64,000 nucleotides of DNA from Escarpia spicata (lineage: Eukaryota; Annelida; Polychaeta; Sabellida; Siboglinidae): contig OZ023214.1 in assembly GCA_963995525.1 (NCBI GenBank), forward strand, positions 33,190,887 to 33,254,886, in the 5' to 3' direction. The position numbers were made by a program, and so were the translations under genes. This document shows, piece after piece, positions 173 through 63,080 of this stretch. How positions within the stretch are numbered: the stretch's first letter is position 1; each line of letters opens with the position of its first letter. The notes below the pieces were generated by a model, which worked only from the letters and a program-made list of their open reading frames with translations, was not told the DNA's origin and searched no databases.

Positions 173-188
173 TTCCACTTTCCACTCA

Positions 189-3602: not shown

Positions 3603-3642
3603 TTTTAACTCTTTATTTCTACTCCTCGCTTCCGCCCAGGGA

Positions 3643-17713: not shown

Positions 17714-17849
17714 AAACTAAAGGTGGGTAGAATGTTTCTAGTAGCCTCGGAAAATTGACTCACCAATGTGCAATCCTTTGTGATGATTGAATAGTTTTGA
17801 AGATACAAAAAGATTTTTAAAGTGTTGTCAAACATAAATGGTAACTACA

Positions 17850-18777: not shown

Positions 18778-18779
18778 TA

Positions 18780-19530
18780 ACTCTGCAAGGTGTGTACAAT
18801 AAATATGCGCAGCAGACCCCGGTCTATGTCCCACCGATGACAAACCAAATCCGCGCAACTGTCACTTTCATCCGACGTAAACAAGATCCAGGTGACAACT
18901 TTGACAACTTTGTCACGGATCTCCGAATTCTTGTGAAAGACTGTGGCTATGCTGAAGACGACCGCAAGCTCAGAGATGCAATTATCTTGAGATCATCGCA
19001 AGCCGCGATCCACGTGAAATATCTAGAGAAAGGAGACAAACTGACTCTAAACATGGCCATGAATATTGGTCAGAACTACGAGACGTCCCAGGAAAGCATG
19101 CACGCGATAAACGCCGATGAAGACCCCACAATTCATGCTGTGAACACTGGAGGTCGGAGAAAACCGAGGATAGCTGGACGTTTGAGGAACTGGTCACAGT
19201 CCAGATTCCACAAAGACCATGCTAAACAGAAAGCGAGATACAAGGATCAACGGATATGTCAGAAATGCGGGTACAAAATATCGCACGAACGTTGCCCCGC
19301 TAAGGACAGCAAGTGCCACTACTGTCATAAGAAGGGACATTTTGTGTCAATGTGCCGCAACAAGGCGAGCGCCCACATAGTTGAGGACATGTGTGGCTTT
19401 GAGCAATCAGATGATGACGGCGACGCACATCTGATCAATACCATCACCGATGCAGAAGGCGACTGGTGGGAACGCATAGGTGTAAACGGAACACACATCA
19501 AAATGCAGATAGACACCGGCGCTACGTAAT
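18780..19530 (+). pseudogene. gag C-terminal part, zinc knuckles and protease start of element C
   Basis: Gag resumes with VYNKYAQQTPVYVPPMTNQI and a FIRRKQDPGDNFDNFVTDLR block. Two zinc knuckles follow (CQKCG, H, C, then CHYCHKKGHFVSMC). The frame runs into the protease, whose active site MQIDTGAT is followed directly by a stop. In relatives the protease continues with a short serine-leucine block, and that continuation is visible just downstream in the same frame. Confidence 0.8.
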
Positions 19531-31220: not shown

Positions 31221-31339
31221 TTGCACAAGAAGCGTCTGATTTCATCTGGATGCCCTTGCAGTCTGTTTCTGTAGATGATACAACAAATGCGTGTTCACAC
31301 AATGCAAACGGCAGACAACTTATAATGTTTCTATATGGA
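31221..31339 (-). CDS. Cys-rich protein exon at the edge of a junction array
   Basis: Reads PYRNIISCLPFALCEHAF, then VVSSTETDCKGIQMK and SDASCA. The acceptor is TTCTTGCAG and the donor CAA/GTGAGT. It enters in phase 2 and leaves in phase 1, which fits the next exon. The upstream exon with the signal peptide is not found. The acceptor and first bases (TTGCAGTCCATATAGAA) are the repeat unit of the 1.27-kb array that adjoins it. Confidence 0.6.
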
Positions 31340-32612
31340 CTGCAAGAAGTGAGATTAAAGTTCTATATGGACTGCAAGCAGTGAGACTGGAGTTCTATAT
31401 GGACTGCAAGAAGTGATACTGGAGTTCTATATGGACTGCAAGCAGTGAGACTGGAGTTCTATATGGACTGCAAGCAGTGAGACTGAAGTTCTATATGGAC
31501 TGCAAGAAGTGAGACTGGAGTTCTATATGGACTGCAAACAGTGAGACTGGAGTTCTATATGGACATCAAGCAGTGAGACTGAAGTTCTATATGGACTGCA
31601 AGCAGTGAGACTGGAGTTCTATATGGACTGCAAGCAGTGAGACTGAAGTTCTATATTGGCTGCAAGCAGTGAGACTGGAGTTCTACATGAACTGCAAACA
31701 GTGAGACTGGAGTTCTATATGGACTGCAAGAAGTTCTATATGGACTGTAAGAAGTGAGACTGGAGTTCTATATGGACTGCAAGAAGCGAGACTGAAGTTC
31801 TATATGGACTGCAAGCAGTGAGACTGGAGTTCTATATGGACTGCAAGCAGTGAGGCTGAAGTTCTATATGAACTGCAAGCAGTGATACTGGAGTTCTATA
31901 TGGACTGCAAGCAGTGAGATTGAAGTTCTATATGGACTGCAAGCAGTGAGACTGGAGTTCTAGTCTCACTGCTAGTGAGCAGTGAGACTGAAGTTCTATA
32001 TGGACTTCTAGCTGTGAGACTGGAGTTTTATACAAACTGCTAGCTGTGAGACTGGAGTTCTATAAGACTGCTAGCTGTAAGACTGGAGTTCTACACAGAC
32101 TGCTAGCTGTGAGACTGGAGTTTTATATAGACTGCTAGCTGTGAGACTGGAGTTCTACACGGACTGCTAGTTGTGTGTCTGGAGTTCTTTACAGACTGCT
32201 AGCTGTAAGACTAGAGTTCTACACAGACTGCTAGCTGTGAGACTGGAATTCTATACAGACTGCTAGCTGTAAGACTGGAGTTCTACACAGACTGCTAGCT
32301 GTGAGACTGGAGTTCTATACAGACTGCTAGCTGTGAGACTGGAATTCTATACAGACTGCTAGCTGTAAGACTGGAGTTCTACTCAGACTGCTAGCTGTGA
32401 GACTGGAGTTCTATATAGATTGCTATCTGTGAGACTGGTGTTCTACACAGACTGTTAGTTGTGTGTCTGGAGTTCTATACAGACTGCTAGCTGTGAGACT
32501 GGAGTTCTACATGGACTGCTAGTTGTGTGTCTGGAGTTCTATACAGACTGCTAGCTGTGAGACTGGAGTTCTAGACAGACTGCTAGTTGTGAGACTTTAG
32601 TTGAATCGTCTA
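31340..32612. repeat. minisatellite, ~32-bp unit, derived from the acceptor of the Cys-rich exon
   Basis: On the minus strand the unit is CTTGCAGTCCATATAGAAC followed by TCCAGTCTCACTG. The last unit becomes the true 3' splice site and exon start at 31,339. Two subtypes meet near 31,975: units with CTTGCAG toward the Cys-rich exon and units with GCTAGCAG toward NUP155. About 38-40 units fill the whole space between the last visible NUP155 exon and the first visible Cys-rich exon. Confidence 0.9.
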
Positions 32613-32617
32613 CTCAC

Positions 32618-32731
32618 GGAGGTGATGTTGACCAACTCAGCATTCAGCTGGGCAAGAGCATCACTCAACTCAGAACTCTTGGCTGACTGCTTTGACAACA
32701 ACTCAAAGTTCTGCAGCTGGATCGCTGCCAC
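32618..32731 (-). CDS. NUP155: NUP155 exon 20 (last visible)
   Basis: Reads [20 protein letters not shown], then [17 protein letters not shown], aligned with the VARIQLQ...SQLDSELMDIT region of vertebrate NUP155. 38 codons, phase 0 to 0, acceptor GATGTTGTAG, donor TCC/GTGAGT. The next expected block (YADPFKL..CKLAI) is not found downstream. Confidence 0.88.
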
Positions 32732-35700
32732 CTACAACATCAATGAAAGATCTACAATTGGGTCACTGGCCCCCCTACACCTTCAACAAAGATTTATAAT
32801 AGTATTGCTGCCACATACAACATCAAACAAAGATCTACAATTAGGTCACTGCTCCCTACCCCATCAACAAAGATTTACAACGGCATTGCTGCTACATATA
32901 TCAAAGATCTACAATTGGGTCGCTGCCCCCTACATCATCAACAAAGATTTACAACGGGATTGCTGCCATATCCAACATCAAACACATCTCTGCAGCTAGC
33001 CAGCTGCAATTTACAATGCAAAGACAATTCATATTGAAGTATATTTAATTGATTAATATTAAATTGTCACAGACGTTCAAATTATAGGGTGAAATCTCAC
33101 TATCATTGCAGCCTCAGGACGGGGCCAAAATTACCTACTAATACCCTATACTTTACGTTTACAGAAGTCATGTGTGACTGTCCCAGGGTGACCATAATTG
33201 TAAGGTGGCTGTATTACTGAGGTAACCATAATTGTAAGGTGGCTCTATTACTGAGGTGACCCTAATTGTATGGTGGTTGTATTACTGAGGTAACCATAAT
33301 TGTAAGGTGGTTGTATTACTGAGGTGACCATAATTGTAAGGCGGCTCTATTACTGAGGTGACCATAATTGTAAGGTGGTTTTATTACTGAGGTGACCATA
33401 CTTGTAAGGTGGTTGTATTACTGGGGTGACCATAATTGTAAGGTGGTTGTATTGCTGAGGTGATCATAACTGTAAGGTGGTTGTATTACTGAGGTGACCA
33501 TAATTGTAAGGTGGTTGTATTACTGAGATGACCATAATTGTAAGGTGGTTGTATTACTGAGATGACCATAATTGTAAGGTGGTTGTATTACTGAGGTGAC
33601 TATAATTGTAAGGTGGTTGTATTACTGAGATGACCATAATTGTAAGGTGGTTGTATTGCTGAGGTGATCATAATTGTAAGGTGGTTGTATTACTGAGATG
33701 ACCATAATTGTAAGGTGGTTGTATTACTGAGGTGATTATAATTGTAAGGTGGTTGTATTACTGAGATGACCATAATTGTAAGGTGGTTGTATTGCTGTGG
33801 TGATCATAACTGTAAGGTGGTTGTATTACTGAGTTGACCATAATTGTAAGGTGGTTGTATTACTGAGATGACCATAATTGTAAGGTGGTTGTATTACTGA
33901 GATGACCATAATTGTAAGGTGGTTGTATTACTGAGGTGACTATAATTGTAAGGTGGTTGTATTACTGAGATGACCATAATTGTAAGGTGGTTGTATTACT
34001 GAGGTGACTATAATTGTAAGGTGGTTGTATTACTGAGATGACCATAATTGTAAGGTGGTTGTATTACTGAGGTGACTATAATTGTAAGGTGGTTGTATTA
34101 CTGAGATGACCATAATTGTAAGGTGGTTGTATTACTGAGGTGACTATAATTGTAAGGTGGTTGTATTACTGAGATGACCATAATTGTAAGGTGGTTGTAT
34201 TACCTTAGCTTTTTATTGTCTATAAAGTGTCGCAGTTACGAATTATGGATGATACAGTTTTCTTTTTGTATCACATCTTTCCATAAAACTGTGACATACT
34301 TTAAAATTCTAATATTTGAAGTATATTTCAAAACAGGTATCTTTCACTATGAAAGTCATCACAGTGTATATATATAATGGTGTCATAATACTGTATTCGT
34401 TCTATTAAGTGTACATGCCGTAATTAGCGTACACCCCCTTTTAGCAGCATCCAACGCCGTGGCAGTGATCTCAATGCCAACCTTGACTGTTGAATCCATC
34501 ATTGTGTTTACATTTTTACCAATATCATACTATATTCAAAGCGTGGTGATGAAACAACATTGAAAAGTCCACTTAAACTATCAGATGTTTACAGTGTTCT
34601 GGTAGCCTGTTGCTCGTATGTGAGATGCATAAATCACTTGCCAAGTCATGTCTGCTGAGATGGCAGAACTCAGGAACCACAGAAACCAAAGAAAATGGGT
34701 GCACACCCCTGTAAGTTCATGATTTCCTACAAAACCTACCTCCATTTTCTTTTCAAGTTCATGAAGAAATTCGCCTTCTACTGCTGAAGTTGTGCGTAAC
34801 GTTGAACTTTTAGCACACATGGCTGCCCGCGAGAGATATTCAATACGCTGCCCAAGGTTGACATCCATGCTGCAAGGCCACCATTCTTACATGAAAGTTT
34901 TATAACACTTTAATCAAACCAAATCGTTTCTGATAACCAGGAAAACTGGAAATTTATTCAAACCAGTTTTAGCTTACCTTCCTCATTCAGTTTTATAAAC
35001 AAAATAATGTCTGCCAATAAGAAGCATTTCACAAATTCTCCCAAGAGATATTTAAACAAATTGATTTTAGTTGGCAGGAAAATCTTGGGCTTGGATCATT
35101 GTGGATATTGGTGCAGAAATTTTCGAAAATATTTGGAAGGATTCAAGAGACAAGTATTGTCATTTTATAAATATTATTCATAAACTATCCATAGACATAT
35201 ATTAAGAAACAGCTGTAGATAAACGGTAGTCAGAGAAAGTGTATTTGAGGAAGTTAGTCGCAGGCCAAAGCCGGTGCTTTGGTGGGTGATAATCGAGGGG
35301 AAATCGAATTTGTTTATGTGGTTAGTGTCCCGCATGTTCGCTAGGGTGCGTTATACCAAACATAAACAAGGCAATCTAGCGTAAAGTGTAAAATTTGTGA
35401 CAAACACATACCAGTACCTATGAGTCAAGTAACTTGGTGGCAATGTATGACACCGGTCGTGACATGTACCTGTCTCTCAGGTAACTTGGTGACAATGTAT
35501 TACACCTGTCATGACACGTACCTGTGTCTCAGGTAACTTGGAGACAATGTATGACACCTGTCATGACACATACCTGTGTCTCAGGTAACTCGGAGGCACA
35601 ATGTATGACACCTGTCATAACAAGTACCTGTATGTCAGCTAACTTGGAGACAATGTATGACACCTGTCACAACACATACCTGTGTGTCAGGTAATTTGGT

Positions 35701-38700
35701 GACAATGTATGACACCTGTCATAACACATACCTGTGAGTCGGGTAACTTGGTGACAATGTATGACAGCTGTCATGACACGTACCTGTGTCTCAGGTAACT
35801 TGGTGACAATTATGACAACTGTCACGCCACGTACCTGCGTCTCTCAGCCAGCTTTGCGAGGATGCTTGCAGCAGCTGAGTAGTTCTTGGACTTCTCATAG
35901 TAGCGCCACAGCAGGTCGAGCATAGCCAGGTTGTTGGGGTGTAGGGACGCAGCACGCTTCAGGTAGTCCTCCAGGTAGGGCGACTGGGTCTGTGACAAAC
36001 ACCCTTCACATCACACAGATGGCTATTTGTTACACGTACAAATGCATGTATACATCTGATGTCAATCTTGTCAACAGAACTTAAACTTCACCCTAGCCTT
36101 CAACCAAACACTATCCCTAAAACTAACCCTTTTGGCACATCAGACCAACCATAAAAGATCATTTGTACATGGAGTAGCACAAAACTCCCCCCCCCCCGTG
36201 CCCTTTGTTGTGCGTCAGTCCAAAGGGCTGTTTCACTACTAAGGCTCATAATCAACCGGTAAACAGAATCCCTTAATAAATTTAGGAGCCTATTCCATTA
36301 TGAAAAAGCCACCGCTGCATCACTGAGGACAATATTTCCATGATGCACCAGCTAAAATGTTCCGGTGCAGCGTCCTGGTGTTGAAAATGTTCAGTACACA
36401 AGAAATCAATTTTAAAGAGAAAATCGGGTTTATGCGCTCATGATGAATGATCAGACACATAGTCTATGCTTATATCACTGGATGATTAGGTCTTATGTGC
36501 TGATGATGAGTCATCAGGCACATAGTCTATGCTTATATCACTGGATGATTGGGTCTTATGAGCTGATGATGAGTCATAAGGCACAGAGTCTATGCTTACA
36601 GCACTGGATGATTGGGTCTTATGAGCTGATGATGAGTCATAAGGCACAGAGTCTATGCTTACAACACTGGATGATTGGGTCTTATGAGCTGATGATGAGT
36701 CATCAGACACATAGTGTATGCTTACAACACTGGATGATTAGATCTTATGAGCTGATGATGAGTCATCAGGCACATAGTCTATGCTTATAACACTGGATGA
36801 TTGGGTCTTATGAGCTGATGATGAGTCATCAGGCACAGTCTATGCTTGCAACACAGGATGATTGGGTCTTATGAGCTGATGATGAGTCATCAGACACATA
36901 GTGTATGCTTACAACACTGGATGATTAGATCTTATGAGCTGATGATGAGTCATCAGGCACATAGTCTATGCTTATAACACTGGATGATTGTGTCTTATGA
37001 GCTGATGATGAGTCATCAGGCACAGTCTATGCTTGCAACGCTGGATGATTGGGTCTTATGAGCTGATGATGAGTCATAAGGCACAGAGTCTATGCTTACA
37101 ACACTGGATGATTGGGTTTTATGAGCTGATGATGAGTCATCAGACACAGTCTATGCTTACAACACTGGATGATTGGGTCTTTTTCTAAACCTGCACTGGT
37201 ATATAAACTCCAGTCTTGCTAAACTGCAATTGAAAACATTCTTAATTTTATTATTAGATTTGTCAAAATGGTTTATTTGACAAACAAATTAAGACAGTAT
37301 GAAAGAAGTACTAATGGGAATATCTGAAAATGAATTCACCTCAAGTAACTTCTCAGAGACTCTTGTTCATATCTGAAAGTGAACTCACCTCAAGTAACTT
37401 CTCAGAGAGTCTTGTTGATATCTGAAAGTGAACTAACATCAAGTAACTTCTCAGAGACTTGTTGATATCTGAAAGTGAACTCACCTCAAGTAACTTCTCA
37501 AAGACTCTTGTTGATATCTGAAAGTGCACTCACCTCAAGTAACTTCTCAGAGACTCTTGTTGATATCTGAAAGTGAACTCACCTAAAATAACTTCTCAGA
37601 CTGTTGTTGGTATCGTAAAGTGAACTCACTTCAAGTAACTTCTCAGAGAGATTCTTGTTGATGAGCAAGTCGTAGAGGGCCACGTGGAAGAGCTCGTCAT
37701 CAGACCTCAACGAGAGGCGGAATACTTCCTCTGACTAAACACAACAGAAATGTTTCATGCAACTCAATGCACATACGGGTGAAGATGTTCTACAAAACAA
37801 GAGAAGAGTTACTAAGCACAAGGACGGAAACAGAAAGTGGGTCTTGCAAAGAGTACTGGGCAAGGTAGAGTAGAAAACGAGACAATAACCAGGGCTGATC
37901 GTGTGTATGCCCCTCTATCTTGGCATCAAAAGGGATGCACTTGGAGGTTTTGTTGAACCTTAGGAGGATGCAGTTTGGTGTTTTGTTAAGCCTCAGGGGT
38001 GTAAGTGGAGGTTTTGTTGGGCCCCAAAGGGGTGAAGCTGGATGTTTTTGGTAAGACTCAAGGGTGACTGGACCACACATTCGTGAAGTCCTCAAACTGT
38101 TGGCCAGTCTGTTGGGATCGTCAGTGACCTGCAGTGGACCGGGCAGCTTGGGTACGCTGGGGGCGTGGGGGTGGGACTGACTGGCTGACAGCAGGTAGTT
38201 GAGGGTCTCCGTGATACACTTGTAGCAGTCCATTCTGTCAACAAACACATCTCTTCTTCACCTCGGCAATACTGTAGGTAAAATGTGGTCATATGCCTTG
38301 TGAGAGGATTAAGGTTACTTCACCTGTTGCTGAAGGCAATGAGGCCCTGGGAGTGAGAGGGTTAAGGTTACTTCACCTGTTGCTGAAGGCACTGAGGCCC
38401 TGGGAGTGAGAGGGTTAAGGTAACTTCACCTGTTGGTGTAGACAATGAGGCCCTGGGAGTGAAAGGGTTAAGGTTACTTCACCTGTTGCTGTAGACAATG
38501 ATGCCCTGAGTATGAGAGGGTTAAGGTTAGTTCACCTGTTGCTGTAGGCAATGAAGCCCTGGGAGTGAGAGGGTTAAGGTTAGGTCACCTGTTGCTGTAG
38601 GCAATGAAGCCCTGGGAGTGAGAGGGTTAAGGTTAGTTCCCCTGTTGCTGTAGGCAATGAGGCCCTGGGAGTGAGAGGCTTAAGGTTAGTTCACCTGTTG

Positions 38701-41700
38701 CTGTAGGCAATGAGGCCCTGGGAGTCAGAGGGTGGCTCCCCATTCTTGTAGAAGTGCAGGCCCCAACACTGCAGGTCTCTCTTCTTTGATGCAGTCAATG
38801 TCAATTCCACGATGCCAGAGTAGAAGCCAACCGCCGCGAACTGGTTACACACAGTCGGCAGGTCTAACTCGGCTGCAACGTCTTTGAACAACTACAAGAC
38901 AAAATCACAATGACTATGAATAACTACAAAACAAAATCACAATGACTATGAACAATTACAAAACAAAGTCACAATGACCATGAACAGCTACACCTATAAA
39001 GTCACAATGACCATGAACAACTACAACACAAAGTCACAATGACCATGAACAACTACAACACAAAGTCACAATGACCATGAACAACTATTGATTGATTTAT
39101 TCCATATAAAGTGTCAGCTTGTACACATAAAATATAAATACAGGTTACATTAAATATAAAGGATGACACAAGAAAGTGCAGCACTTGTCTCCATTGTGGT
39201 CCTTGGACAGACACAGACAAATACATGAGACATATATTAATAGAATATGACAAAATAACAGACTAAAACAACAATAATAAACAAATACTAGTTACTGTTC
39301 AGATGTCAAAAGACATTGATAATTGTAATATTAAGGGAGGGAGATTACCTCCTGATTATAAGCATTATTAAGTCATTTGAAAAACCGACTCATGTACTAC
39401 AAATACATACCAGTTTTTAAATTAAAAACTTTACAAAAGATGCGTAATCAATAAAAAATGAAACATAAAATACATGTCCCTAAAAAATACGATGAATTAA
39501 AAGTAAACAACTGTGCTGGCTTAATGATCATTAAGGTAATTGAACAAAAACTGTTTGACTAAATGTTTAAATTGGTTCTTGTTCGTAGCACCTTGTATGT
39601 TATATGGCAATTCATTCCATGTCTGTGTAGTAAAAAGAAGTTTGACCGAAAGATTTAACATACGTCACATGAAGAGACAAAGTACTAAATCTTGTATTTA
39701 TACCATGCTGCTTGCGTGTTACGTTGAAAGAATCGGACAAATAAATCGGTGCTCTGTCATTGACAATATTATAGACAAGGTTCAATTTTAGTTGCTTAAC
39801 CCGTAGATCCACTGGTAACATGTTGACCTGTCTAAACTCTGTTGATCCAATGTGGGTTCTGGCTGGTGCATTAAGAAGGAAACGGATTACCTTGTTCTGG
39901 GTGCACTGTAGTCTAGTTTTATATTTCTTGGTTAAACCCGAGAACCATGATGAACAGGCATAGTCAAAATGACATTGTATTAAGATAAGAAGGTAAGAAG
40001 TGTTTTTGTTTTCATGTTGACATTTCTTGTTTGCCTGTACAAGAATGTTAACTTAGCATTTGATTTACAAATTATCTTCTCAGCCACTCCTCCAGTTAGT
40101 GACTGATCTAACTCTACACCGAGGTACTTAACATTAAAGGTATTTAACATGCGTCTGACACGTCAATGTGTTGCCAGCACATTTCACCTGGATGGAGTTG
40201 CATGTGTGCAGTTTACGTTTTGATCCAAAAAGAATTGATTCAGTTTTGCCTAAATGGAGGGACAGTTTGTTATTTATCAGCCATTCTCTGGCTGCCTCAA
40301 GCTCCGAAGAGACACTTTCTTGGATGTGTTGGGTGTTCTTACCCGAAACTATGAGGGCCAAATTGTCAGCGTACAAAAGAAGTTTGAAGCGAACAGCCGA
40401 TGAAATATCATTAATATATATTAGAAACAGTAAGGGTCCGAGAATTAACCCTTGAGGTACACCACATGTGACAGTCATCGGTTTCAATAAGGTACCACCA
40501 ATTTCAACTGATTGAAGGTCAAAAAGCACCATATCTATAGAATTACATTTATCTTACTCCAGTTTTAAGAAGTCTATGAGAAGTATTAAACATGTTTCGG
40601 TAGAATAGAAGGATCTAGAATGAGACTGATGCTGATATAGGATCTGATGTTGCTGATATAGGAGCTGATGTTGCTCATATAGGAGCTGATGTTGCTCATA
40701 TAGGAGCTGATGTTGCTCATATAGGATCTGATGTTACTCATATAGGAGCTGGTGTTGCTGATATAGGAGCTGATGTTGCTGATATAGGAACTGATGTTGC
40801 TCAAATAGGAGCTGATGTTGCTCATATAGGAGCTGGTGTTGCTCATATAAGAGCTGGTGTTGCTGATATAGGAGCTGATGTTGCTGATATAGGATCTGAT
40901 GTTGCTCATATAGGATCTGATGTTGCTCATATAGGAGCTGATGTTGCTCATATAGGAGCTGATGTTGCTCATATAGGAGCTGATGTTGCTCATATAGGAG
41001 TTGATGTTGCTCATATAGGAGCTGATGTTGCTCATATAGGAGCTGATGTTGCTCATATAGGAGCTGATATGCTTTGAGATACTCGTCCAGCTGTTGATAC
41101 ACGATCCTCTCAAATAATTTCGAGATCATATTTAGAATCGAGATCGGCCTGTAATCACCATTGGGCAACACCTTGCTGATTTAAGATCTTCTGGAATTTC
41201 GCCAGTGGACAAAGATAAATTTAAAATGTGTCAAAGAAGACGCAATGAGCCTGGCACCATCCTTAATAAATCTGGGTGACAATAGATCCAGACCAGTTGC
41301 CTTGTTTGAGTTTAGTTTGCTAAGAATACGTAGTACTTTGTTCTCATTGACTTCACTAAACAGAAACTATTACAGGTGACACCCAGTGACCTGTAGAAGT
41401 CTTGGATGTGTTGCCATTCATATTTACCATTACAGTCTACTTGGTTAGTAAAATAATTGTTAAAATGCTCAGATACCATTGACTTATCAAAAAAAATGTT
41501 GTTATTGATATCGAGTCCTATACTCCCTGGCTTAGTTTTATGCTGAGACAAAGTTCCGAGGCTTTTCAGCATTTGCCATAACTTCTTTGGTTATAGTTTG
41601 AAATCGTCAGCCTTGTTAGCAGTGAAGTCTGATTTGGTCTGTTTCTTCTTATATTGAACCTGATTCTGAAGATAACTGTATTTTCCATGCCAACTGATGT

Positions 41701-53700: not shown

Positions 53701-56700
53701 ATACTTAACACACCTGAGAATGCGAGAGACCCAGAGATACTTAACACACCTGAAAATGCGAGAGACACAGAGATATTTAACACACCTGAGAATGCGAGAG
53801 ACACAGAGATACTTAACACACCTGAGAATGCGAGAGACCCAGATATACTTAACACACCTGAGAATGCGAGAGACACAGAGATACTTAACACACCTGAGAA
53901 TGCGAGAGACCCAGATATACTTAACACACCTGAGAATGCGAGAGAGCCAGATATACTTAACACACCTGAGAATGCGAGAGAGGTAGAGACAGAGGCCATT
54001 GTGTTTGCCGGAGTAGATGACCTCCGGGGAGCCTGGAGCGAAGGCGCTGGATGATGGACTCTGGAACTGCAGCTGCTGCGTGACGTTGGGGAATGGAGTG
54101 GACGTCTGGGGAAACTCACCTAGACACACCGGTCAAACATATCATATGACCTACACACACATTGGTCAAACATGTCTCATGACCTACAGACACACACTGG
54201 TCAAACATGTCACATAACCTACAGACACACATGACCTACAGACACACACCGGTCAAACATGTCACGTGACCTACAGACACACACCGATCAAACATGTCAC
54301 ATGATCCACAGACACACATGACCTACAGACACACACCGATCAAACATGTCACATAACCTACAGATACACATGACCTACAGACACACACTGGTCATACATG
54401 TCACATGATCCACAGACACACATGACCTACAGACACACACCGATCAAACATGTCACATAACCTACAGACACACATGACCTACAGACACACACTGGTCATA
54501 CATGTCACATAACCTACAGACACACACCGATCAAACATGTCACATGATCCACAGACACACTTGACCTACAGACACACACAGGTCAAACATGTCACAAGAC
54601 CTACAGACACACCGGTCAAACATGTCACATGACTTACAGACACATCGGTCAAACAAGTCACATGACCTGCAAGTCGTATTTCAAAATAAATGTTGAATTC
54701 ACCTCCTCTCCTTGGTGTACCGAATCCACTGGCTCCACTCAGGAAAGACTGCGGCCCATCTGCAAGTCAGAGTTATTCTGTGAGTTCATCTAGTAGTCTC
54801 ACAACTTCATTCACAAGACTGTTTTATTTAGCAGCATCAGCAGGTAAAGTATAGCAGCAAACTTACAATTTGTTTCCCACAAGAAACAATCATCTATGAA
54901 ATATCTTTCTGCATTACAGCATGGAAACTGATATAATTAAGAGCCATCACAGACATGAATAGAATTTCACAGAGCTAAAATCAGTATTTACCCTTGAATA
55001 GTTATACCACACTACGCAATTACATGAAGATTAACGTGGAATAAAATAATGACACTGAAGAATGCTCTGGGGACCATCTCACTAACATTTTTATCAGCTC
55101 ATAAGAATGCTCTGGGGACCATCTCACTAACATTTTTATCAGCTCATAAGAATGCTCTGGGGACCATCTCACTAACATTTTTATCAGCTCATAAGAATGC
55201 TCTGGGGACCATCTCACTAACATTTTTATCAGCTCATAAGAATGCTCTGGGGACCATCTCACTAACATTTTTATCAGCTCATAAGAATGCTCTGGGGAAC
55301 ATCTCACTAACATTTTTATCAGCTCATAAGAATGCTCTGGGGAACATCTCACTAACATTTTTATCAGCTCATAAGAATGCTCTGGGGAACATCTCACTAA
55401 CATTTTTATCAGCTCATAAGAATGCTCTGGGGACCATCTCACTAACATTTTTATCAGCTCATAAGAATGCTCTGGGGACCATCTCACTAACATTTTTATC
55501 AGCTCATAAGAATGCTCTGGGACCATCTCACTAACATTTTTATCAGCTCATAAGAATGCTCTGGGGACCATCTCACTAACATTTTTATCAGCTCATAAGA
55601 ATGCTCTGGGGACCATCTCACTAACATTTTTATCAGCTCATAAGAATGCTCTGGGGAACATCTCACTAACATTTTTATCAGCTCATAAGAATCCTCTGGG
55701 GAACATCTCACTAACATTTTTATCAGCTCATAAGAATGCTCTGGGGACCGTCTCACTAATGTTCTTATCAGCTCATAAGAATGCTCTGGGGACCAACTCA
55801 CTAACGTTCTTATCAGCTCATAAGCTCAAATCTGCTCTTAAAAGTTGATTTTGTTCTGTAACAGTGATGTTGCATATTGAGAAATGATGACCAGGGTGCG
55901 CCACCAGGACAATTGTTGATGTCTCAAGAATAGTGTCCTGGTGACACATGTCACTCACTATACATGGTGTTGACTCCCCCTGCAGACACAGCAAAGTTAC
56001 ATTCCGGCTCTCCCCCATACAGGAAGTAAGCCCGGGTCGCTTCCTCCACCACCTGTGAACAACCACAAACAAGTCACGTCTCGATGTCGCTATGACGACA
56101 CTAAATTTGAATAAGACAATTTCAGCACTAAGTTTCTCGTTCTATTTGTCTTTAGTTGCGTAACTTAACAGCCGATCACATGTTAGTCAGGTGTTCCCTA
56201 TCAGTGTCACAGTCTGAGGAGGTAAACGTAAATACCGGAAATTTCCGTGTATAATACGCATTTGTTTCCTTCACTTTTTACTCAAAAGTTGGGGTGCATA
56301 TTATACATGGTGCTAAGGCTAAACTAAATTTCTCTGATCAATTTATCAATGTTTGTAGACCAGGATAACACTGCTAGAAAACTAGTAATATTATCACGAA
56401 AGGCAAGAATCGCACTCCCGTAACTGCCTCTCTAGCCCTAAACTAGCAGCGAGAAATGACAAAGACGAGAGCCCATATGTCTGACTTCGCGAATAACACC
56501 AATGAGTGGGAAGCGTACGAGGCCAGGAAGCGTCCCGCTATGATTATGATTGGCATTCTTGAATCACGTGAATGATGCCCGCATCAAGGGTCGAGTGTCT
56601 ACAAGTGTGACTCCATGTTTAAAATTGTGAATGCAAATGTTGTGAATGTAAATAAAGACGAATGTAGTGCATGTGTGCTTCGCAGTTGAAAGTACCAGGT

Positions 56701-59700: not shown

Positions 59701-62700
59701 CGTCCCCTGTGATTTAAGGAAAATGATCCCCTCACCTGTGAGTTAAGGACAATGATCCCCTTGTATGAGTTAAGGACAATGATCCCCTAACCTATGAGTT
59801 AAGGACATTGATCCCCTCACCTGAGTTAGGGACAATGATCCCTCACATGTGAGTTAAGGACAATGATCCCCTCACCTGTGAATTAAGGACAATGATCCCC
59901 AAACCTATGAGTTAAGGACAATGATCCCCTCACCTGTGAGTTAAGGACAATGACCCCTCACCTGTGAGTTAAGGACAATGATCTCTCACCTATGAGTTAA
60001 GGACAATGATCCCCTCACCTATAAGTTAAGGAAAATGATCCCTCACATGTGAGTTACGGACAATGATCCCCTCACATGTGAGTTAAGGATAATGATCCCC
60101 TCACCTGTGAGTTAAGGACAATGATCCCTCACCTGTGAGTTAAGGACAATGATCCCTCACCTATGAGTTAAGGACAATGATCCCCTCACCTGTGTGTTAA
60201 GGACAATGACCCCTCACCTGTGAGTTAAGGACAATGATCTCCTCACCTGAGTTAAAGACAATGATCCTCACACCTGTGAATTCAGGACAATGATCACTAC
60301 GTGTGAGTTAAGGACAATGATCCCACACCTGTGAGTTAAGGACAATGATCCCCTCACCTGTGAGTTGATGAGGACAAACTTCCTGGGTGGGTCAAGGTGT
60401 TGGGTGACGACGGCTGGGGGGTCTGCCTTTCCCGTCTCCTCCATTAGACAAATCTCTCCCAGGTCAGCGCTCCAGGACGGCATCTCCGAGATTGCCCACG
60501 CCCGACCCTGGATTGGCATCACTTCCTACAAGCCACAGCAGGGGCACAGTAGCACAGCTGTAAGAGCCTCTGACCCTGGATTGGCATCACTTCCTACAAG
60601 ACACAGCAGGGGCGCAGTAGCACAGCTGTAAGAGCCTCTGACTCTCGACTGAGAGAATGCGGGTTCAAATCCTGTGCGTGGGGTCGAACCTTGGGCAAGT
60701 TTGTTTACTCTACATTGCTTCAATTCACTTAGCTGTATGAATGAGTACCTGGCTAGAGACAGTGGTGGATATTTGTGTACAAATAGTCTTCGCGCATTTA
60801 TTGCAGTGTGGCTCAATGCTTCCCAGAGACGTCAAGATGGTGATCGATTGAACAGGTCAGCCAGGAAGTAAAGTGTAAAGCGCTTGGAGCCAGACTCTGA
60901 CCTGGACCACTTCCTACATACAAGAAACATCCAGACTCTGACCTGGACCTCTTCCTACACACAAGACACATCCAGACTCTAACCTGGACCTCTTCCTACA
61001 CACAAGACACATCCAGACTCTGACCTGGACCTCTTCCTACACACAAGAAACATCCAGACTCTGACCTGGACCTCTTCCTACACACAAGACACATCCAGAC
61101 TCTGACCTGGACCTCTTCCTACACACAAGAAACATCCAGACTCTGACCTGGACCTCTTCCTACACACAAGACACATCCAGACTCTGACCTAGATCTCTTC
61201 CTACACACAAGACACATCCAGACTCTGACCTGGACCTCTTCCTACACACAAGACACATCCAGACTCTGACCTGGACCTCTTCCTACACACAAGAAACATC
61301 CAGACTCTGACCTGGACCTCTTCCTACACACAAGACACATCCAGACTCTGACCTGGACCTCTTCCTACACACAAGACACATCCAGACTCTGACCTGGACC
61401 TCTTCCTGCACACAAGACACATCCAGACTCTGACCTGGACCTCTTCCTGCACACAAGACACATCCAGACTCTGACCTGGACCTCTTCCTACACACAAGAC
61501 ACATCCAGACTCTGACCTGGACCTCTTCCTGCACACAAGACACATCCAGACTCTGACCTGGACCTCTTCCTGCATACAAGACACATACAGACTCTGACCT
61601 GGATCTCTTCCTACATACAAGACACATCCAGACTCTGACTTGGACCTCTTCCTACATACAAGACACATCCAGACTCTGACTTGGATCTCTTCCTACATAC
61701 AAGAAACATCCAGACTCTGACTTACACCTCTTCCTACATACAAGACACATCCAGTCTCTGACCTGTACCTCTTCCTGCATACAAGACACATCCAGACTCT
61801 GACCTGGACCGCTTCCTACATACAAGACACATCCAGACTCTGACCTGGATCTGTTCCTACATACAAGACACATCCAGACTCTGACCTGGACCTCTTCCTA
61901 CATACAAGACACATCCAGACTCTGACCTGGATCTCTTCCTACATACAAGAAACATCCAGACTTTGACCTGGATCTCTTCCTACATACAAGACACATCCTG
62001 GATCTCTTCCTACATACAGTGAAGTTCAGTGGCCTCATACATACAACATATTAACCATTCCCGCATATAATGTTCTCGCTTAGGCAAATTTGCCCTTTTT
62101 GCCAAGAAAAAGTTGGGGCTAGAATTCCCACGAAAAATACAATGTCTGGCAGCTTTACATTTATGGCAACATTTTTGAAAGACCTGGTTGCTAGGCAACA
62201 TGTGACATAACGGACAGATTAATTATTTCACCCTTTTGTAGCCATTGTCATCTTCAGTGGACAAGACAAAAGCCATTAAAACAGCAACATAACATTTATA
62301 AGATGACATTTTAATGTGCAATGTTCATCAACAAAGTAACATCAAATAAGAAAACAAAATGTCACCACATAGATCTTTAACATTTCACAATGATATTATC
62401 ATTCCACAGCAAAAATACCAAGACAACTACTTGGATCTTATTCTCTCTGCTTCAGACTGCCATGGCCAGTTGACACTGCTGTATGCCAAAACTTAAACTG
62501 CAGTTCATGATTTAATAAATTTATACAGCAACTTCCATCAGCTGCACAGACTCAGATGGCTCCCTCGTGACTGACCATAAAACGTTACCCCGCCAATGGC
62601 AATGGAACATGTTGTGTGTCACTCTTATAAAGCACAACATGCGCAGGTGGAGTTGGAAGGGGAAACTGTCAGCAGTCGTCGTCCACAACACGTCCCCATC

Positions 62701-62732
62701 CTCTGCAGTGGCTGCTGCCAGCAACAGGGTCC
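32618..62732 (-). CDS. NUP155: NUP155 nuclear pore scaffold, 20 exons, both ends missing
   Basis: Nup155 is an inner-ring scaffold nucleoporin: an N-terminal beta-propeller followed by a long alpha-solenoid. Twenty minus-strand exons align in order with vertebrate NUP155, from about residue 440 to 1150 of about 1390. Diagnostic blocks include [113 protein letters not shown] and [14 protein letters not shown]. All exon phases join without a stop (about 770 codons). The N-terminal propeller part must lie beyond 64 kb. The C-terminal 200 or so residues are not in the window although 32 kb follow. The introns are dominated by minisatellites, many of them copies of the splice junctions. Confidence 0.93.
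32732..32995. repeat. acceptor-derived repeat of NUP155 exon 20, ~5 units
   Basis: On the minus strand units read GATGTTGTATGTGGCAGCAAT and similar, alternating with a GATCTTTG block, copying the true junction GATGTTGTAG/GTGGCAGCGATC. They are diverged and several copies have lost the AG, so this is an older array. Confidence 0.75.
33188..34203. repeat. minisatellite, 34-35-bp unit, ~29 copies
   Basis: The unit is ACCATAATTGTAAGGTGGTT plus GTATTACTGAGATG. Copies are nearly identical, with two-unit periodicity (GAGATGACC alternating with GAGGTGACT) around 33,900-34,190. It sits mid-intron, not adjacent to an exon. Confidence 0.95.
34740..34869 (-). CDS. NUP155: NUP155 exon 19
   Basis: Reads [20 protein letters not shown], then [11 protein letters not shown] and [14 protein letters not shown]. 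It corresponds to the very conserved [30 protein letters not shown] block. Enters in phase 2, leaves in phase 0. Acceptor GCCTTGCAG, donor GAG/GTAGGT. The exon itself is not flanked by a junction array. Confidence 0.95.
34870..35400. other. NUP155 intron, unique part
   Basis: No repeat or coding feature was recognised between exon 19 and the donor array of exon 18. Confidence 0.5.
35403..35834. repeat. donor array of NUP155 exon 18, ~53-bp unit, ~8 extra donors
   Basis: On the minus strand each unit contains CTGAGACACAG/GTACGTGTC or a close variant, copying the true exon end GAGACGCAG/GTACGTGGC and the following intron. Most copies keep CAG/GTACGT or CAG/GTATGT, an excellent 5' splice site consensus. 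Confidence 0.9.
35835..35989 (-). CDS. NUP155: NUP155 exon 18
   Basis: Reads [20 protein letters not shown], then [18 protein letters not shown] and [13 protein letters not shown]. It matches the SPFLE...[12 protein letters not shown] region. Phase 0 to 2. Acceptor TTTGTCACAG, donor CAG/GTACGT. Confidence 0.95.
36440..37185. repeat. minisatellite, 60-bp unit, ~12 copies
   Basis: The unit contains GAGCTGATGATGAGTCATCA, CACATAGTCTATGCTTA and ACTGGATGATTGGGTCTTAT. A few copies are shorter. It lies mid-intron. The 20-residue repeat frame through it is an artefact of the 60-base period. Confidence 0.95.
37325..37629. repeat. donor array of NUP155 exon 17, ~50-bp unit, ~6 extra donors
   Basis: On the minus strand units read CAAGAGTCTCTGAGAAGTTA, then CTTGAG/GTGAGTTC, copying the last 30 bases of the exon (AATCTCTCTGAGAAGTTACT) and its donor GAA/GTGAGTTC. 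Several copies have a better donor (GAG/GTGAGT) than the true one. One copy has lost it. Confidence 0.9.
37630..37730 (-). CDS. NUP155: NUP155 exon 17
   Basis: Reads [20 protein letters not shown], then [13 protein letters not shown], matching [20 protein letters not shown]. The end is phase 0 at GAA/GTGAGT. Two starts are phase-compatible: after TAGTCAG (37,730) if exon 16 ends at 38,098, or after TGTTTAG (37,734) if it ends at 38,129. Confidence 0.9.
38098..38234 (-). CDS. NUP155: NUP155 exon 16
   Basis: Reads [20 protein letters not shown], then [10 protein letters not shown] and TDDPNRLAN, matching YKCITDTL..SPSVPKKPGP..SDPNMLSN. Acceptor GTTGACAG. The end is uncertain: ACA/GTTTGAG (38,098) keeps the DPN block, while CAG/GTCACT (38,129) is a better donor but drops it. 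Enters in phase 2. Confidence 0.88.
38300..38694. repeat. donor array of NUP155 exon 15, 53-bp unit, 7 extra copies
   Basis: Copies of the exon end lie at about 38,321, 38,374, 38,427, 38,480, 38,533, 38,586 and 38,639, with the true one at 38,692. On the minus strand each reads CCCAGGGCCTCATTGCC, then AGCAACAG/GTGAA. About 35 exonic bases are included in every unit. The copy at 38,639 has lost the GT. Confidence 0.93.
38695..38891 (-). CDS. NUP155: NUP155 exon 15
   Basis: Reads [20 protein letters not shown], then [19 protein letters not shown] and [11 protein letters not shown], matching [20 protein letters not shown] and GLHFYKHGEP. Phase 0 to 2. Both sides carry junction arrays: donor copies below, acceptor copies above. 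Confidence 0.95.
38892..39085. repeat. acceptor-derived array of NUP155 exon 15, part 1
   Basis: On the minus strand units read TTTGTCTTGTAG/TTGTTCATGG and similar, about 33-36 bases, copying the true junction TTTTGTCTTGTAG/TTGTTCAAAG. The array is cut by a LINE and resumes at 41,750. Confidence 0.85.
40134..40532 (-). pseudogene. LINE reverse transcriptase, catalytic part
   Basis: Contains [20 protein letters not shown], then [14 protein letters not shown], then [20 protein letters not shown]. One catalytic aspartate is N. Fingers and palm upstream of this are missing or replaced by the 21-bp array. Confidence 0.85.
40620..41066. repeat. 21-bp minisatellite grown from LINE RT codons
   Basis: Minus-strand unit CAGCTCCTATATGAGCAACAT, 21 bases, about 21 copies. 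It encodes QLLYEQH and stays in frame with the preceding RT block LDEYLKAY. In intact LINEs this block continues with a single LLY.HQSGFR-like sequence, so the array is an expansion of that codon run. Confidence 0.92.
41750..42235. repeat. acceptor-derived array of NUP155 exon 15, part 2
   Basis: Continuation of the array at 38,892-39,085: units with TGAACAACTACAAGACAAAG, TCACAATGACCA and variants. They become more diverged toward 42,235, farther from the exon. Confidence 0.8.
42513..42590 (-). CDS. NUP155: NUP155 exon 14
   Basis: Reads [20 protein letters not shown], then LQEALQ, matching the NELLQRSRQV..KERMLRESL region. 26 codons, phase 0 to 0. Acceptor GTGCTTTCAG, donor CAG/GTCAGT. Confidence 0.85.
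42625..42865. repeat. minisatellite, ~24-bp unit, ~10 copies
   Basis: The unit is GGAGCTGACAGGTGCTCAAC, then ACC. On the minus strand each unit contains CACCTGTCAG, acceptor-like. The array starts about 35 bases upstream of the acceptor of exon 14 and shares GGAGCACCTGT with its flank. Confidence 0.85.
42866..43575. repeat. polypurine GAAGAAGGAG array
   Basis: About 700 bases almost free of pyrimidines on the plus strand (GAAGAAGGAGAAG). In the NUP155 pre-mRNA it is pure CU. It starts some 15 bases after the donor of exon 13. The Glu- or Leu-rich frames are artefacts. Confidence 0.95.
43591..43722 (-). CDS. NUP155: NUP155 exon 13
   Basis: Reads [20 protein letters not shown], then [20 protein letters not shown] and ICSK, matching [20 protein letters not shown] and CPLLYSTDDAICSK. 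44 codons, phase 0 to 0. Acceptor TTGTTACAG, donor AAG/GTAGGG. Confidence 0.95.
43735..44155. repeat. minisatellite, 15-17-bp unit next to exon 13 acceptor
   Basis: The unit is TCACAAGTCACACAATG or TTACAAGTCACACAGTG. On the minus strand it resembles the pyrimidine-side of the acceptor (CTTGTGACATTGTTACAG) but lacks the AG in most copies. It is only a partial junction copy. Confidence 0.85.
44285..44875. repeat. 22-bp minisatellite, ~27 copies
   Basis: The unit is GTGACCTCCGTCAACCTAGT, then GC. Very homogeneous, mid-intron. Confidence 0.95.
45284..45343 (-). CDS. NUP155: NUP155 exon 12
   Basis: Reads [20 protein letters not shown], matching LQEQLKITTFKDLVIRDKE. 20 codons, phase 0 to 0. Acceptor CATTGTAG, donor GAG/GTAGGC. 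Confidence 0.9.
45536..45795. repeat. minisatellite, ~26-bp unit, ~10 copies
   Basis: The unit is ACACCCCGTATCATGACCAT, then AGTAACA. It lies mid-intron, 200 bases from exon 12. Confidence 0.9.
46046..46318. repeat. 33-bp minisatellite, ~8 copies
   Basis: The unit is AAGTACACAGCACAGCAAAC, then ACAACCAATATAT. Five consecutive copies are identical, which suggests recent expansion. Confidence 0.95.
46430..46563 (-). CDS. NUP155: NUP155 exon 11
   Basis: Reads [20 protein letters not shown], then [20 protein letters not shown], matching [20 protein letters not shown] and KLLCEHQF. Phase 1 to 0. Acceptor TTTTTGTAG, donor GCG/GTTGGT (weak at +4). Confidence 0.93.
46946..47006 (-). CDS. NUP155: NUP155 exon 10
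   Basis: Reads [20 protein letters not shown], with the end matching ELQRKFHEA. The start after CACCACCAG is chosen because it is the only one that joins the flanking exons in frame. The acceptor TTTTGTAG 22 bases upstream has a better pyrimidine tract but would give a stop. Phase 0 to 1, donor AAG/GTAAGT. Confidence 0.7.
47111..47905. mobile_element. non-autonomous DNA transposon with CAGTGCAACACGC ends
   Basis: The left end CAGTGCAACACGCTTATAAC and the right end ATAAGCGTGTTGCACTG are inverted copies. Subterminal TTCGTTATA motifs repeat inside both ends. About 795 bp. No transposase frame is present. The left flank is TA, the right flank TG, so the target duplication is not intact. It lies in the intron between exons 9 and 10. 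Confidence 0.75.
48125..48235 (-). CDS. NUP155: NUP155 exon 9
   Basis: Reads [20 protein letters not shown], then [17 protein letters not shown], matching [20 protein letters not shown] and NSQF. 37 codons, phase 0 to 0. Acceptor TTTTCTGTCCACAG, donor AAG/GTATTG. Confidence 0.85.
48236..49950. repeat. acceptor-derived array of NUP155 exon 9, ~24-30-bp unit, ~60 copies
   Basis: On the minus strand units read TTCTTTCTGTCACCAACTGA, then TGAG. The closest ones (TCTATCCTCAG/CTGATGAGTT) match the true junction TCTGTCCACAG/CTGATGAGTC. A block near 48,965-49,060 is in inverted orientation. About 190 bases around it are repeated at 49,265-49,460 (higher-order duplication). Confidence 0.9.
49951..50633. 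other. NUP155 intron, unique part
   Basis: Contains several GAAAACGAAAAA-type blocks near 50,240-50,420. No gene or clear element was recognised. Confidence 0.4.
50634..50694 (-). CDS. NUP155: NUP155 exon 8
   Basis: Reads [20 protein letters not shown] after a split R codon, matching the (R)xxWD.SLV.E segment that follows SRI in NUP155. 61 bases, phase 2 to 0. Acceptor TTGTTGTTGCCAG, donor TAT/GTAAGT. The acceptor and first 13 bases are the repeat unit of the array that follows. Confidence 0.85.
50695..53525. repeat. acceptor array of NUP155 exon 8, ~46-bp unit, ~60 copies
   Basis: On the minus strand each unit carries TTGTTGTTGCCAG/GCCACTG, the true acceptor and exon start. Copies are over 90 percent alike. 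A higher-order duplication of about 0.5 kb is visible: the rare variant ACATCACT..AGCTTAACAACAG at 51,287 recurs at 51,801. Long frames ([14 protein letters not shown] type) are artefacts. Confidence 0.95.
53530..53965. repeat. donor array of NUP155 exon 7, 36-bp unit, 12 donors in frame
   Basis: On the minus strand each unit reads CTCTCGCATTCTCAG/GTGTG, identical to the true exon end and donor at 53,966. Eleven further donors follow at exact 36-base steps down to about 53,570. The exon frame stays open through the whole array, adding 12 residues per unit ([12 protein letters not shown]). Confidence 0.95.
53966..54119 (-). CDS. NUP155: NUP155 exon 7
   Basis: Reads [20 protein letters not shown], then [20 protein letters not shown], matching [20 protein letters not shown]. 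Phase 1 to 2. Acceptor GTGTGTCTAG, donor CAG/GTGTGT. Confidence 0.96.
54120..54665. repeat. acceptor-derived array of NUP155 exon 7, ~35-bp unit
   Basis: On the minus strand units read ATGTTTGACCGGTGTGTGTC, then TGTAG/GTCATGTGA, copying the true site ACCGGTGTGTCTAG/GTGAG. About 16 imperfect units, many keeping the AG. Confidence 0.85.
54703..54759 (-). CDS. NUP155: NUP155 exon 6
   Basis: Reads [19 protein letters not shown], in the Ser/Gly/Pro-rich linker of NUP155 (SFLGTPSHG in vertebrates). 57 bases, phase 1 to 1. Acceptor GACTTGCAG, donor GAG/GTGAAT. Confidence 0.85.
55065..55830. repeat. 45-bp minisatellite, 17 copies, almost identical
   Basis: The unit is GCTCTGGGGACCATCTCACT, then AACATTTTTATCAGCTCATAAGAAT in the continuing 25 bases. 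Most copies differ at only one site (GACC or GAAC). It is open in frames on both strands because 45 is a multiple of three. It sits 130 bases from exon 5 and is not a junction copy. Confidence 0.95.
55959..56052 (-). CDS. NUP155: NUP155 exon 5
   Basis: Reads [20 protein letters not shown], then [11 protein letters not shown], matching WATRAFFRYGGEAQMRF. Phase 0 to 1. Acceptor GTTCACAG, donor ATA/GTGAGT. Confidence 0.93.
56240..57062. mobile_element. non-autonomous DNA element with GTGTATAATACGC ends
   Basis: The left end TTTCCGTGTATAATACGCAT and the right end GGGGGCGTATTATACACGTA are inverted. Internal copies of GGGTGCATATTATACATG lie near both ends. About 820 bp, no transposase. It lies in the intron between exons 4 and 5. 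Confidence 0.7.
57206..57362. repeat. 26-bp minisatellite, ~6 copies
   Basis: The unit is GGCATGACGATGGTGAACAT, then CAATCA. Mid-intron. Confidence 0.9.
57728..57787 (-). CDS. NUP155: NUP155 exon 4
   Basis: Reads [20 protein letters not shown], matching [20 protein letters not shown]. 20 codons, phase 0 to 0. Acceptor TTTGTAG, donor GAG/GTGGGT. Confidence 0.96.
57850..57945. repeat. GGAGGCATGGAGGTGT short tandem repeat
   Basis: Units of about 9-15 bases built from GTGGAGGCATGGAG, some 60 bases upstream of exon 4. Confidence 0.9.
58394..59405. repeat. GA-rich minisatellite next to the donor of exon 3, open in frame with the exon
   Basis: The unit is GGTGTGGATGAGGGAGA, 17-18 bases, with 6- and 12-base variants, about 57 copies. 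It begins within ten bases after the donor of exon 3. On the minus strand the exon frame reads on through the array to a stop at 58,372, giving His/Pro/Leu repeats. The unit does not copy the splice site itself. Confidence 0.95.
59407..59514 (-). CDS. NUP155: NUP155 exon 3
   Basis: Reads [20 protein letters not shown], then [12 protein letters not shown], matching HKLRPVDQLRHLLV and IERFFKLH. 36 codons, phase 0 to 0. Acceptor GCCTCTGCAG, donor CGG/GTTGGT. Confidence 0.96.
59730..60357. repeat. donor array of NUP155 exon 2, ~29-bp unit, ~21 copies
   Basis: On the minus strand units read TTAACTCACAG/GTGAGGGG, then ATCATTGTCC, copying the true exon end ATCAACTCACAG/GTGAGGGG. Many copies keep a perfect CAG/GTGAGG donor. 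Unit length 28 or 29. Confidence 0.93.
60358..60525 (-). CDS. NUP155: NUP155 exon 2
   Basis: Reads [20 protein letters not shown], then [20 protein letters not shown], matching GHSWALSAIDE and VVQQHMLPPKKFVLLSAQ. 56 codons, phase 0 to 0. Acceptor GGCTTGTAG, donor CAG/GTGAGG. Junction arrays lie on both sides. Confidence 0.95.
60500..60642. repeat. 72-bp tandem duplication of exon 2 acceptor plus SINE head
   Basis: A segment running from CCCTGGATTGGCATCACTTC through CCTACAAG and AGCAGGGG to GCACAGCTGTAAGAGCCTCT occurs twice in direct tandem. Each copy includes the first bases of exon 2, its acceptor and the A-box side of the SINE. The second acceptor lies about 72 bases upstream of the true one on the minus strand. 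Confidence 0.85.
60536..60872 (+). mobile_element. tRNA-derived SINE
   Basis: Pol III promoter boxes are visible: A box TAGCACAGCTGT at 60,618 and B box GGTTCAAATCC at 60,662. The body shares CAGCTGTATGAATGAGTA with the copy at 6.8 kb. The 3' end GTAAAGCGCTTGGAGC resembles LINE 3' ends. The SINE lies between exon 2 and the acceptor-derived array of the same exon. Confidence 0.85.
60885..62015. repeat. acceptor-derived array of NUP155 exon 2, ~41-bp unit, ~28 copies
   Basis: On the minus strand units read TGTCTTGTGTGTAG/GAAGAG, then GTCCAGGTCAGAGT, resembling the true junction TGGCTTGTAG/GAAGTGATGC and CAATCCAGGGTC. Now separated from the exon by the SINE. Copies are highly alike except near the 62-kb end. 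Confidence 0.85.
62527..62732 (-). CDS. NUP155: NUP155 exon 1 in this window
   Basis: Reads [20 protein letters not shown], then DSFPFQ, matching GILLMAASENEDNDILW and TFPFQ. It ends SVQLMEVA. Enters in phase 1 after GTGTCACCAG and leaves in phase 0 at GCT/GTATAA. Between FPFQ and the end about 35 codons are extra relative to vertebrate NUP155, so either a lineage-specific insertion or a small unspliced intron is present. Confidence 0.85.
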
Positions 62733-63078
62733 CTGGTGACACAGGCTACAGAGTCACCACCAACAACATGGTCTCTGGTGACACAGGCTACAGAGTCACC
62801 AACAACATGGTCCCTGGTGACACAGGCTACACAATCACCACCAACATGTTTCCTGTTGACACAGGCTACACAATCACCACCAACATGTTTCCTGTTGACA
62901 CAGGCTACACAATCACCACCAACATGTTTCCTGTTGACACAGGCTTCACAATCACCACCAAGTGACACAGGCTACACAATCACCACCAAGTGACACAGGC
63001 TACACAATCACCACCAAGTGACACAGGCTACACAATCACCACCAAGTGACACAGGCTACAGAGTCACCACCAAGTGAC
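62733..63078. repeat. acceptor-derived array of the first visible exon, ~39-bp unit, ~9 copies
   Basis: On the minus strand units read TGTGTCACCAGGGACCATGT, then TGTTGGTGACTC, copying the true junction GTGTCACCAG/GGACCCTGTTGCTGG. Farther units shorten to about 26 bases (ACTTGGTGGTGATTGTGTAG). Confidence 0.9.
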
Positions 63079-63080
63079 AC

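Follow-up and report, generated by a model that had tools for sequence, protein, structure and literature searches.

The DNA that we analysed, hereafter the window, is a stretch of 64,000 nucleotides from the tubeworm Escarpia spicata. Its right half holds a minus-strand gene whose translated exons match human and frog Nup155 (phmmer, E ~1e-155). The closest protein relatives of this gene are the Nup155 proteins of the tubeworms Ridgeia piscesae (84% identity) and Lamellibrachia satsuma (83%), which are themselves 85% identical to each other. Phmmer with human Nup155 and tblastn with human and Ridgeia Nup155 together recognised 20 exons of a truncated gene copy between positions 32,618 and 62,732 on the minus strand; exon borders were set by the tblastn homology plus the GT/AG dinucleotides, and the N-terminal exons continue rightward beyond the window.

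What the window holds is not a working Nup155 gene but one truncated member, with deletions, of a segment present in many copies. The assembly that we searched totals 1.06 billion bases, and in it the last 205 Nup155 residues match only at C4:253,428-272,550 (2 matches, 3 candidates). Because this is the unique site of those residues, it marks the native gene. By tblastn, neither the window nor the 20 kb left of it has a match to the last 200 residues. A 301-base probe (35,700-36,000) is present full-length at 98-100% identity in at least 40 places, the window and the native gene included (40 of 53 candidates were scored), and a probe from the N-terminal exons in the right flank gave 98-100% identity at 34/34 scored places, again including both. 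The window copy has also lost coding sequence. The exon at 38,098-38,234 (minus strand) lacks its 3' end and donor, a loss of ~105 bp that are present in the native gene at C4:283,392-283,497, and the exon at 48,124-48,235 has a 2-nt gap relative to the native gene. Otherwise the two are nearly identical: of the 18 exons that could be compared (two of the 20 lie outside the native pieces fetched), 17 are 98-100% identical and the gapped exon is 95.6% identical. Since the native gene has the same arrays as those described below, they are in the first place features of the native gene, duplicated together with it. Most likely, most of Nup155, arrays included, was amplified later to dozens of copies, and the window copy lost pieces of exons.

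The amplified segment that carries most of Nup155 runs from window position ~15,755 to 64,000 and through the right flank to window coordinate ~101,300 (C11:33,206,600-33,292,200). Its copies are spread over many chromosomes and unplaced contigs, with scaffolding errors possible. Part of the segment may be tandem, since the N-terminal probe matches contig C132 at sites 102 kb apart that share one orientation. Contigs C299, C562 and C381 begin with 400 bases that match window coordinates 15,755, 18,326 and 100,938, respectively, at 97.6-100%. Towards the right end, C11:33,291,886-33,292,186 (window coordinate ~101,000; L014:7000-7300) is a very frequent repeat, with 664 candidates and 40/40 scored at 100% (rounded), and the 10-kb piece that contains it (L014) has a single reading frame of at least 150 residues (156 residues). 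The copy on C1 is circularly permuted, which was considered as a sign of a circular element and dropped because the joint coincides with a run of 200 N. Retrotransposon remains occupy window positions 1-6,300, 10,345-11,100 and 15,280-19,500, of which the first has integrase domains at 385-1,563 and the second matches an endonuclease-reverse transcriptase; a reading frame at 15,280-15,678 has as its sole match LIM, under its cut-off.

Tandem Repeats Finder (TRF) returned 90 rows for the window. The 20 exons have 40 borders, of which 37 were testable; three donor borders were left out because they could not be fixed at that point. At 11/37 testable borders, five donors and six acceptors, a tandem array enters the exon by 7-39 nt. 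At 3 further borders the array stops within 6 bp, outside the exon, so that 14/37 borders are entered or approached. The majority of the Nup155 arrays (18/29) lie off borders.

All of the border arrays belong to minus-strand exons. Of the five donor arrays, that at 35,414-35,843 (unit 52, 8.2 copies, native 10.2) enters the exon starting at 35,835 by 9 nt and keeps GT in 8/8 motif copies. The exon that starts at 37,630 is overlapped for 33 nt by an array at 37,320-37,662 (unit 49), and the one that starts at 38,695 for 39 nt by an array at 38,300-38,733 (unit 53, 8.2 copies, native 10.2). The arrays at 53,558-53,981 (unit 36) and 59,706-60,366 (unit 29, 23 copies, native 16) overlap the exons starting at 53,966 and 60,358 by 16 and 9 nt, respectively. 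The acceptor arrays begin with 32,704-32,981 (unit 40, 7.0 copies), which shares 28 nt with the exon ending at 32,731 and has AG in 3/5 motif copies (native 3/4). Next are 38,885-39,087 (unit 32, 6.3 copies, native 13.3) and 48,227-49,907 (unit 24, ~60-70 copies), which overlap the exons ending at 38,891 and 48,235 by 7 and 9 nt, respectively. The array at 50,678-53,528 (unit 46, 61 copies, native 50), with AG in 49/60 copies (native 49/50), shares 17 nt with the exon ending at 50,694, that at 60,504-60,642 (unit 68) goes 22 nt into the exon ending at 60,525, and that at 62,718-63,080 (units 39 and 28) goes 15 nt into the exon ending at 62,732.

A sequence-only reading of this DNA had proposed 13 arrays whose units carry the border of the exon that they touch. 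Eleven of these hold; two do not. The array at the acceptor 54,119 (54,124-54,668, minus strand) abuts the exon on the intron side only, beginning 5 bp off, and was therefore not counted as a border array; AG is present in 4/15 of its motif copies. The acceptor proposed at 31,339 does not belong to a Nup155 exon: neither human nor Ridgeia Nup155 has a match left of 32,603 in the window, and homology between the window and the native pieces fetched starts at 31,329, which is the left end of an intronic array (31,329-32,596, minus strand, TRF) lying 21 bp from the donor at 32,618. The supposed exon at 31,221-31,339 is non-Nup155 sequence joined inside an array. The same reading called the border copies exact or near-exact, and at 48,235 only the latter applies, with AG missing in 57/60 motif copies. 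Its range of unit lengths, 24-60, becomes 24-68 for the confirmed borders. Its view that each array arose separately stands: the window arrays that we compared are mutually unrelated, the sole similar pair being 38,885-39,087 and 41,715-42,187 (minus strand). These two are one acceptor array, of which the distal part is more decayed (AG in 9/14 copies), split by an element at about 39,090-41,715 that has a reverse-transcriptase match (PF00078, E 4e-12). The element splits the array in both the native gene and the window copy, and it contains a 21-base array of its own, with 21 copies in the window and 56 in the native gene.

Outside the window, 8 exons (16 borders) of the right flank were read by eye and yielded two more donor arrays. 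One, at L011:5,184-5,964, includes 9 nt of the exon at L011:5,956. The other, with 63-base units, extends from L011:9,755 to L012:266 and includes ~40 nt of the exon at L012:224.

Minisatellites are dense throughout the gene. They cover 49-74% of four native 10-kb pieces, 50-85% of two native 3-kb pieces and 54% of the gene in the window; the exon-bearing flank pieces L011 and L012 are covered to 52% and 15%. Pieces of at least 5 kb without Nup155 exons range from 0 to 39%. The far greater cover in Nup155 suggests that something in the gene or its region favours the birth of arrays. The maximum among the pieces without Nup155 exons, 39%, is in the 10 kb immediately left of the window (C11:33,180,887-33,190,886; L010), well above most of the others.

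The native gene on C4 has the same border arrays as the window, in differing copy numbers: 13.0 in the native gene against 7.0 in the window at 37,630, 15.0 against 2.0 at 60,525, and 3.8 against 11.8 at 53,966. The array at 35,835 numbers 7-8 units at the eight loci that were fetched, namely the window and seven further copies, as well as in the copy on C1, and 10 units in the native gene, where a looser cut gives 10 motif copies rather than 9, with GT in 9. These comparisons bear on the worry that errors of assembly produced the arrays. The assembly does include debris-like contigs, round lengths and N runs, yet the same units sit at the same borders of the native gene in other numbers, and the 35,835 array is found in seven other copies and the C1 copy. 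The worry, which the sequence-only reading had raised, is thereby largely answered, and we regard an artefact as hardly credible. One native array behaves differently: at C4:272,001-272,429 (L029:1-429), the end of a 56-base array coincides with the donor of the following exon (about C4:272,430-272,550), and no part of that exon is included.

The units of the border arrays consist of coding sequence from the end of the exon together with the splice site or a decayed form of it. Where the overlap is longer, the exon part encodes residues shared with Ridgeia (SRIL at 53,966, IAYSN at 38,695, LSEKLLE at 37,630), which indicates that the exon is the source of the repeat and not its product. At those native borders where both sides were matched, the predicted Ridgeia protein continues across without inserts (tblastn). 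An opposite history, in which the arrays are older and exon borders moved into them later, might be read from the 14/37 borders at which an array enters the exon or ends within 6 bp. In the longer overlaps, however, the exon part is coding sequence common to Ridgeia and partly to human Nup155, a test that is weak for overlaps of 7-9 nt, and we consider this history highly improbable.

Comparable structures are in print from amphioxus, as the sequence-only reading had noted for Adh. Minisatellite-like duplications of exon-intron borders were described in amphioxus globin genes under the name mirages, which had earlier been given for Adh3 (PMC3087553), and PGBD5 and TnC were later added (PMC3902484). 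The amphioxus mirages (Adh3, BflGb6, BflGb9, TnC and PGBD5) share with the tubeworm arrays tandem duplication across donor or acceptor borders (PMC3087553, PMC3902484). As in the tubeworm, their units measure tens to ~160 bp, many but not all copies carry AG or GT, and copy number varies. Nup155 shows the features by which mirages are recognised: border-spanning units that include exon sequence, both types of border, partial retention of AG and GT, and instability of length. It differs in being from an annelid, in having 11 such borders in a single copy of the gene (13 when the right flank is included) and in having up to ~60 copies per array. The amphioxus mirages were also reported not to disturb splicing, whereas the tubeworm case was studied in DNA. 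Two other systems are related in part. Intron gain through tandem duplication of AGGT (PMC4974935; model in PMC3087553) likewise involves tandem duplication carrying splice motifs, but in the tubeworm existing borders are multiplied and no new intron is shown. Earthworm metallothionein genes (PMC12783039) are annelid genes with minisatellites in their introns; border-spanning units are not described in the available text of that paper. Among the titles listed in our searches of the open-access literature, no earlier report of border-spanning minisatellites in annelids or tubeworms was found, and the available text of the Ridgeia genome paper contains no mention of border-spanning repeats.

We compared the number of border-spanning arrays in Nup155 with chance in several ways. 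In a collapsed-seed null, each of the 29 arrays was reduced to one unit and placed at random, never purely within an exon. This gave a mean of 2.0 border-spanning units against 11 observed; none of 20,000 trials reached 11, and the maximum was 9. A first seed null (expected 1.14) rested on uncollapsed length and was too favourable, so that the collapsed value of 2.0 is relied on. When whole arrays were placed freely with up to 40 nt of exon allowed, the mean was 3.5 and 11 was reached in 2/1,500 trials. A plain count of borders inside arrays was rejected as a null because arrays cover 55% of the tested region, which would predict 20/37 borders if exons were irrelevant; arrays clearly avoid exon interiors. 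The sequence-only reading had held that chance placement could not explain the pattern. With 11/37 borders against 2.0 expected (0/20,000), or against 3.5 (2/1,500), that holds for this gene, but Nup155 was picked because of its border arrays, so these probabilities are optimistic.

Duplications could start preferentially at splice borders, through AG|GT-like microhomology or through breaks tied to co-transcriptional splicing. This would explain the 11 arrays where 2.0 are expected, and it would fit the two additional donor arrays among the 16 borders of the 8 right-flank exons (a count without a null) and the unit ends in one chaperonin gene, which from our reading of the sequence look joined at a shared ACAG. 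Against this reading, Nup155 was selected after the fact, and most of its arrays (18/29) are off borders.

A sample of exons taken blind to repeats also bears on this reading. The sample comprised 49 exons, 40 from chaperonin genes (PF00118, 46 matches) and 9 of 124 kinesin matches. Chaperonin exons were taken with ~300 bases on each side where neighbours allowed, omitting three long uninterrupted matches and the three weakest, and kinesin exons with 140 bases on each side. Three border arrays were found; given the 21 arrays detected in these pieces, ~2.2 would be expected (P = 0.38), a figure that assumes 98 borders, two per exon and not each verified, and a rough figure for exon length. The difference between Nup155 (11/37) and the sample (3/98) gives a Fisher P of 4e-5, subject to the same post hoc choice of the gene. 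All three cases are in chaperonin genes: a donor array in L067 (unit 78, 6 copies seen, GTAAGT in 6/6), an acceptor array in L072 (unit 54, 6 copies seen, AG in 6/6) and an acceptor array in L079 (unit 54, 2-3 copies). Thus, there are clear multi-copy mirages in chaperonin genes on C2 and C13 and an extra case of 2-3 copies at the C2 locus; L067 and L079 lie 21 kb apart on C2 and are probably in the same gene. The 9 kinesin exon pieces contained no border array, and a candidate at the kinesin exon L097 was rejected because the array sits 28 nt inside the intron. Mirages are therefore present in further genes of this genome, and it is in Nup155 alone that a border excess is shown. A mechanism targeting splice borders, as suggested in the sequence-only reading, is so far unsupported, with 3 border arrays against ~2.2 expected in the repeat-blind exons and Nup155 picked afterwards, and we judge it unlikely. 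In L067 (C2:27,725,844-27,726,713), the 78-base units have an acceptor-like ACAG and the donor GTAAGT flanking a short coding stretch, and these may be intronic mini-exons.

The array copies other than the one nearest the exon can be regarded as decoy splice sites, and their state bears on whether selection maintains them. Counting motif copies with the exon-nearest one included, the native gene has GT in 47/51 copies of the five donor arrays and AG in 86/89 copies of five acceptor arrays, with AG in 4/55 at 48,235 and 3/18 at 54,119. The corresponding window counts are GT 55/57, AG 65/79, 3/60 at 48,235 and 4/15 at 54,119. An initial case for selection on decoy sites, drawn from conservation within the unit, was set aside because the first count included the exon-nearest copy and copies had been picked partly by the site itself. 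In a recount limited to decoys, with the exon-nearest copy left out and copies chosen blind to the splice site, GT or AG was retained in 124/132 native copies over ten arrays and in 3/54 in the eleventh (48,235). When the splice dinucleotide was ranked against neighbouring pairs, its mean percentile was 0.59 over the 11 native arrays and 0.58 in the window copy, where 0.5 means no difference. The recount thus showed no clear effect: the dinucleotide is retained among decoys hardly better, and not clearly better, than the surrounding bases, except at the donor 60,358, where it has the top percentile among neighbouring pairs in both the native gene and the window.

Selection might nevertheless retain the arrays for useful spare splice sites, whether for redundancy or for regulated splicing. 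The retention of GT or AG in 124/132 native decoys is what this would predict, as is the site at 60,358 outlasting every neighbouring pair, and before the decoys-only check site conservation exceeded the mean of other positions in 8/10 native arrays. These figures must be set against the mean percentile of merely 0.59 (0.58 in the window copy), the near absence of AG from the decoys at 48,235, the right-flank donor array L011:5184-5964, whose consensus unit has GC and not GT, and copy numbers that differ up to ~sevenfold between the native gene and the window. Selection for working sites, the other explanation offered by the sequence-only reading, is thus unneeded, given the AG count at 48,235 and the mean percentile, and we regard it as very unlikely that the arrays are retained for the use of spare sites. 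Part of the GT retention, for example at 60,358, could come from selection.

Taken together, we think it probable that these mirages are minisatellites founded by a duplication that chanced to cross an exon-intron border, and that they have been tolerated without targeting and without selection on the decoys. Nup155 would sit in a genome that makes minisatellites freely. A duplication within an exon would break the protein and be removed, and one within an intron would be neutral. A duplication across a border would also be neutral, as it would create two identical borders, of which the exon-nearest would restore the old mRNA. Where short exons alternate with long introns, exon definition would bring the closest sites together. 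Nup155, whose exons are short and introns long, is probably spliced in this way, the nearest donor and acceptor being paired and farther decoys ignored, and we infer that splicing uses the exon-nearest site. At 37,630 the decoys that score above the real donor number 4/6 in the window and 8/11 in the native gene (by a rough frequency matrix); an exon-nearest donor weaker than most decoys fits badly with free choice of the strongest site. Unequal exchange would then lengthen and shorten the arrays, whose decoy sites could persist or decay without effect. This neutral account is a better match to the 49-exon sample than to Nup155, where the ~fivefold excess (11 against 2.0) exceeds what neutrality and random seeding provide.

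These observations extend splice-border minisatellites from amphioxus to annelids and show how dense their load can be in one essential gene. The arrays provide a natural test of how the spliceosome chooses among up to dozens of similar sites, and of how far arrays contribute to exon and intron gain. With a native gene and dozens of its copies in one genome, the same arrays can be compared with and without selection. A bolder reading is that siboglinid tubeworms have a recurrent duplication process at splice borders, by which at least a quarter of the borders in some genes become mirages. We consider this rather unlikely. If it were true, units with both an acceptor-like and a donor site, of the type seen in L067, would be ready-made exons, and genes of this kind would be nurseries for exons and introns.
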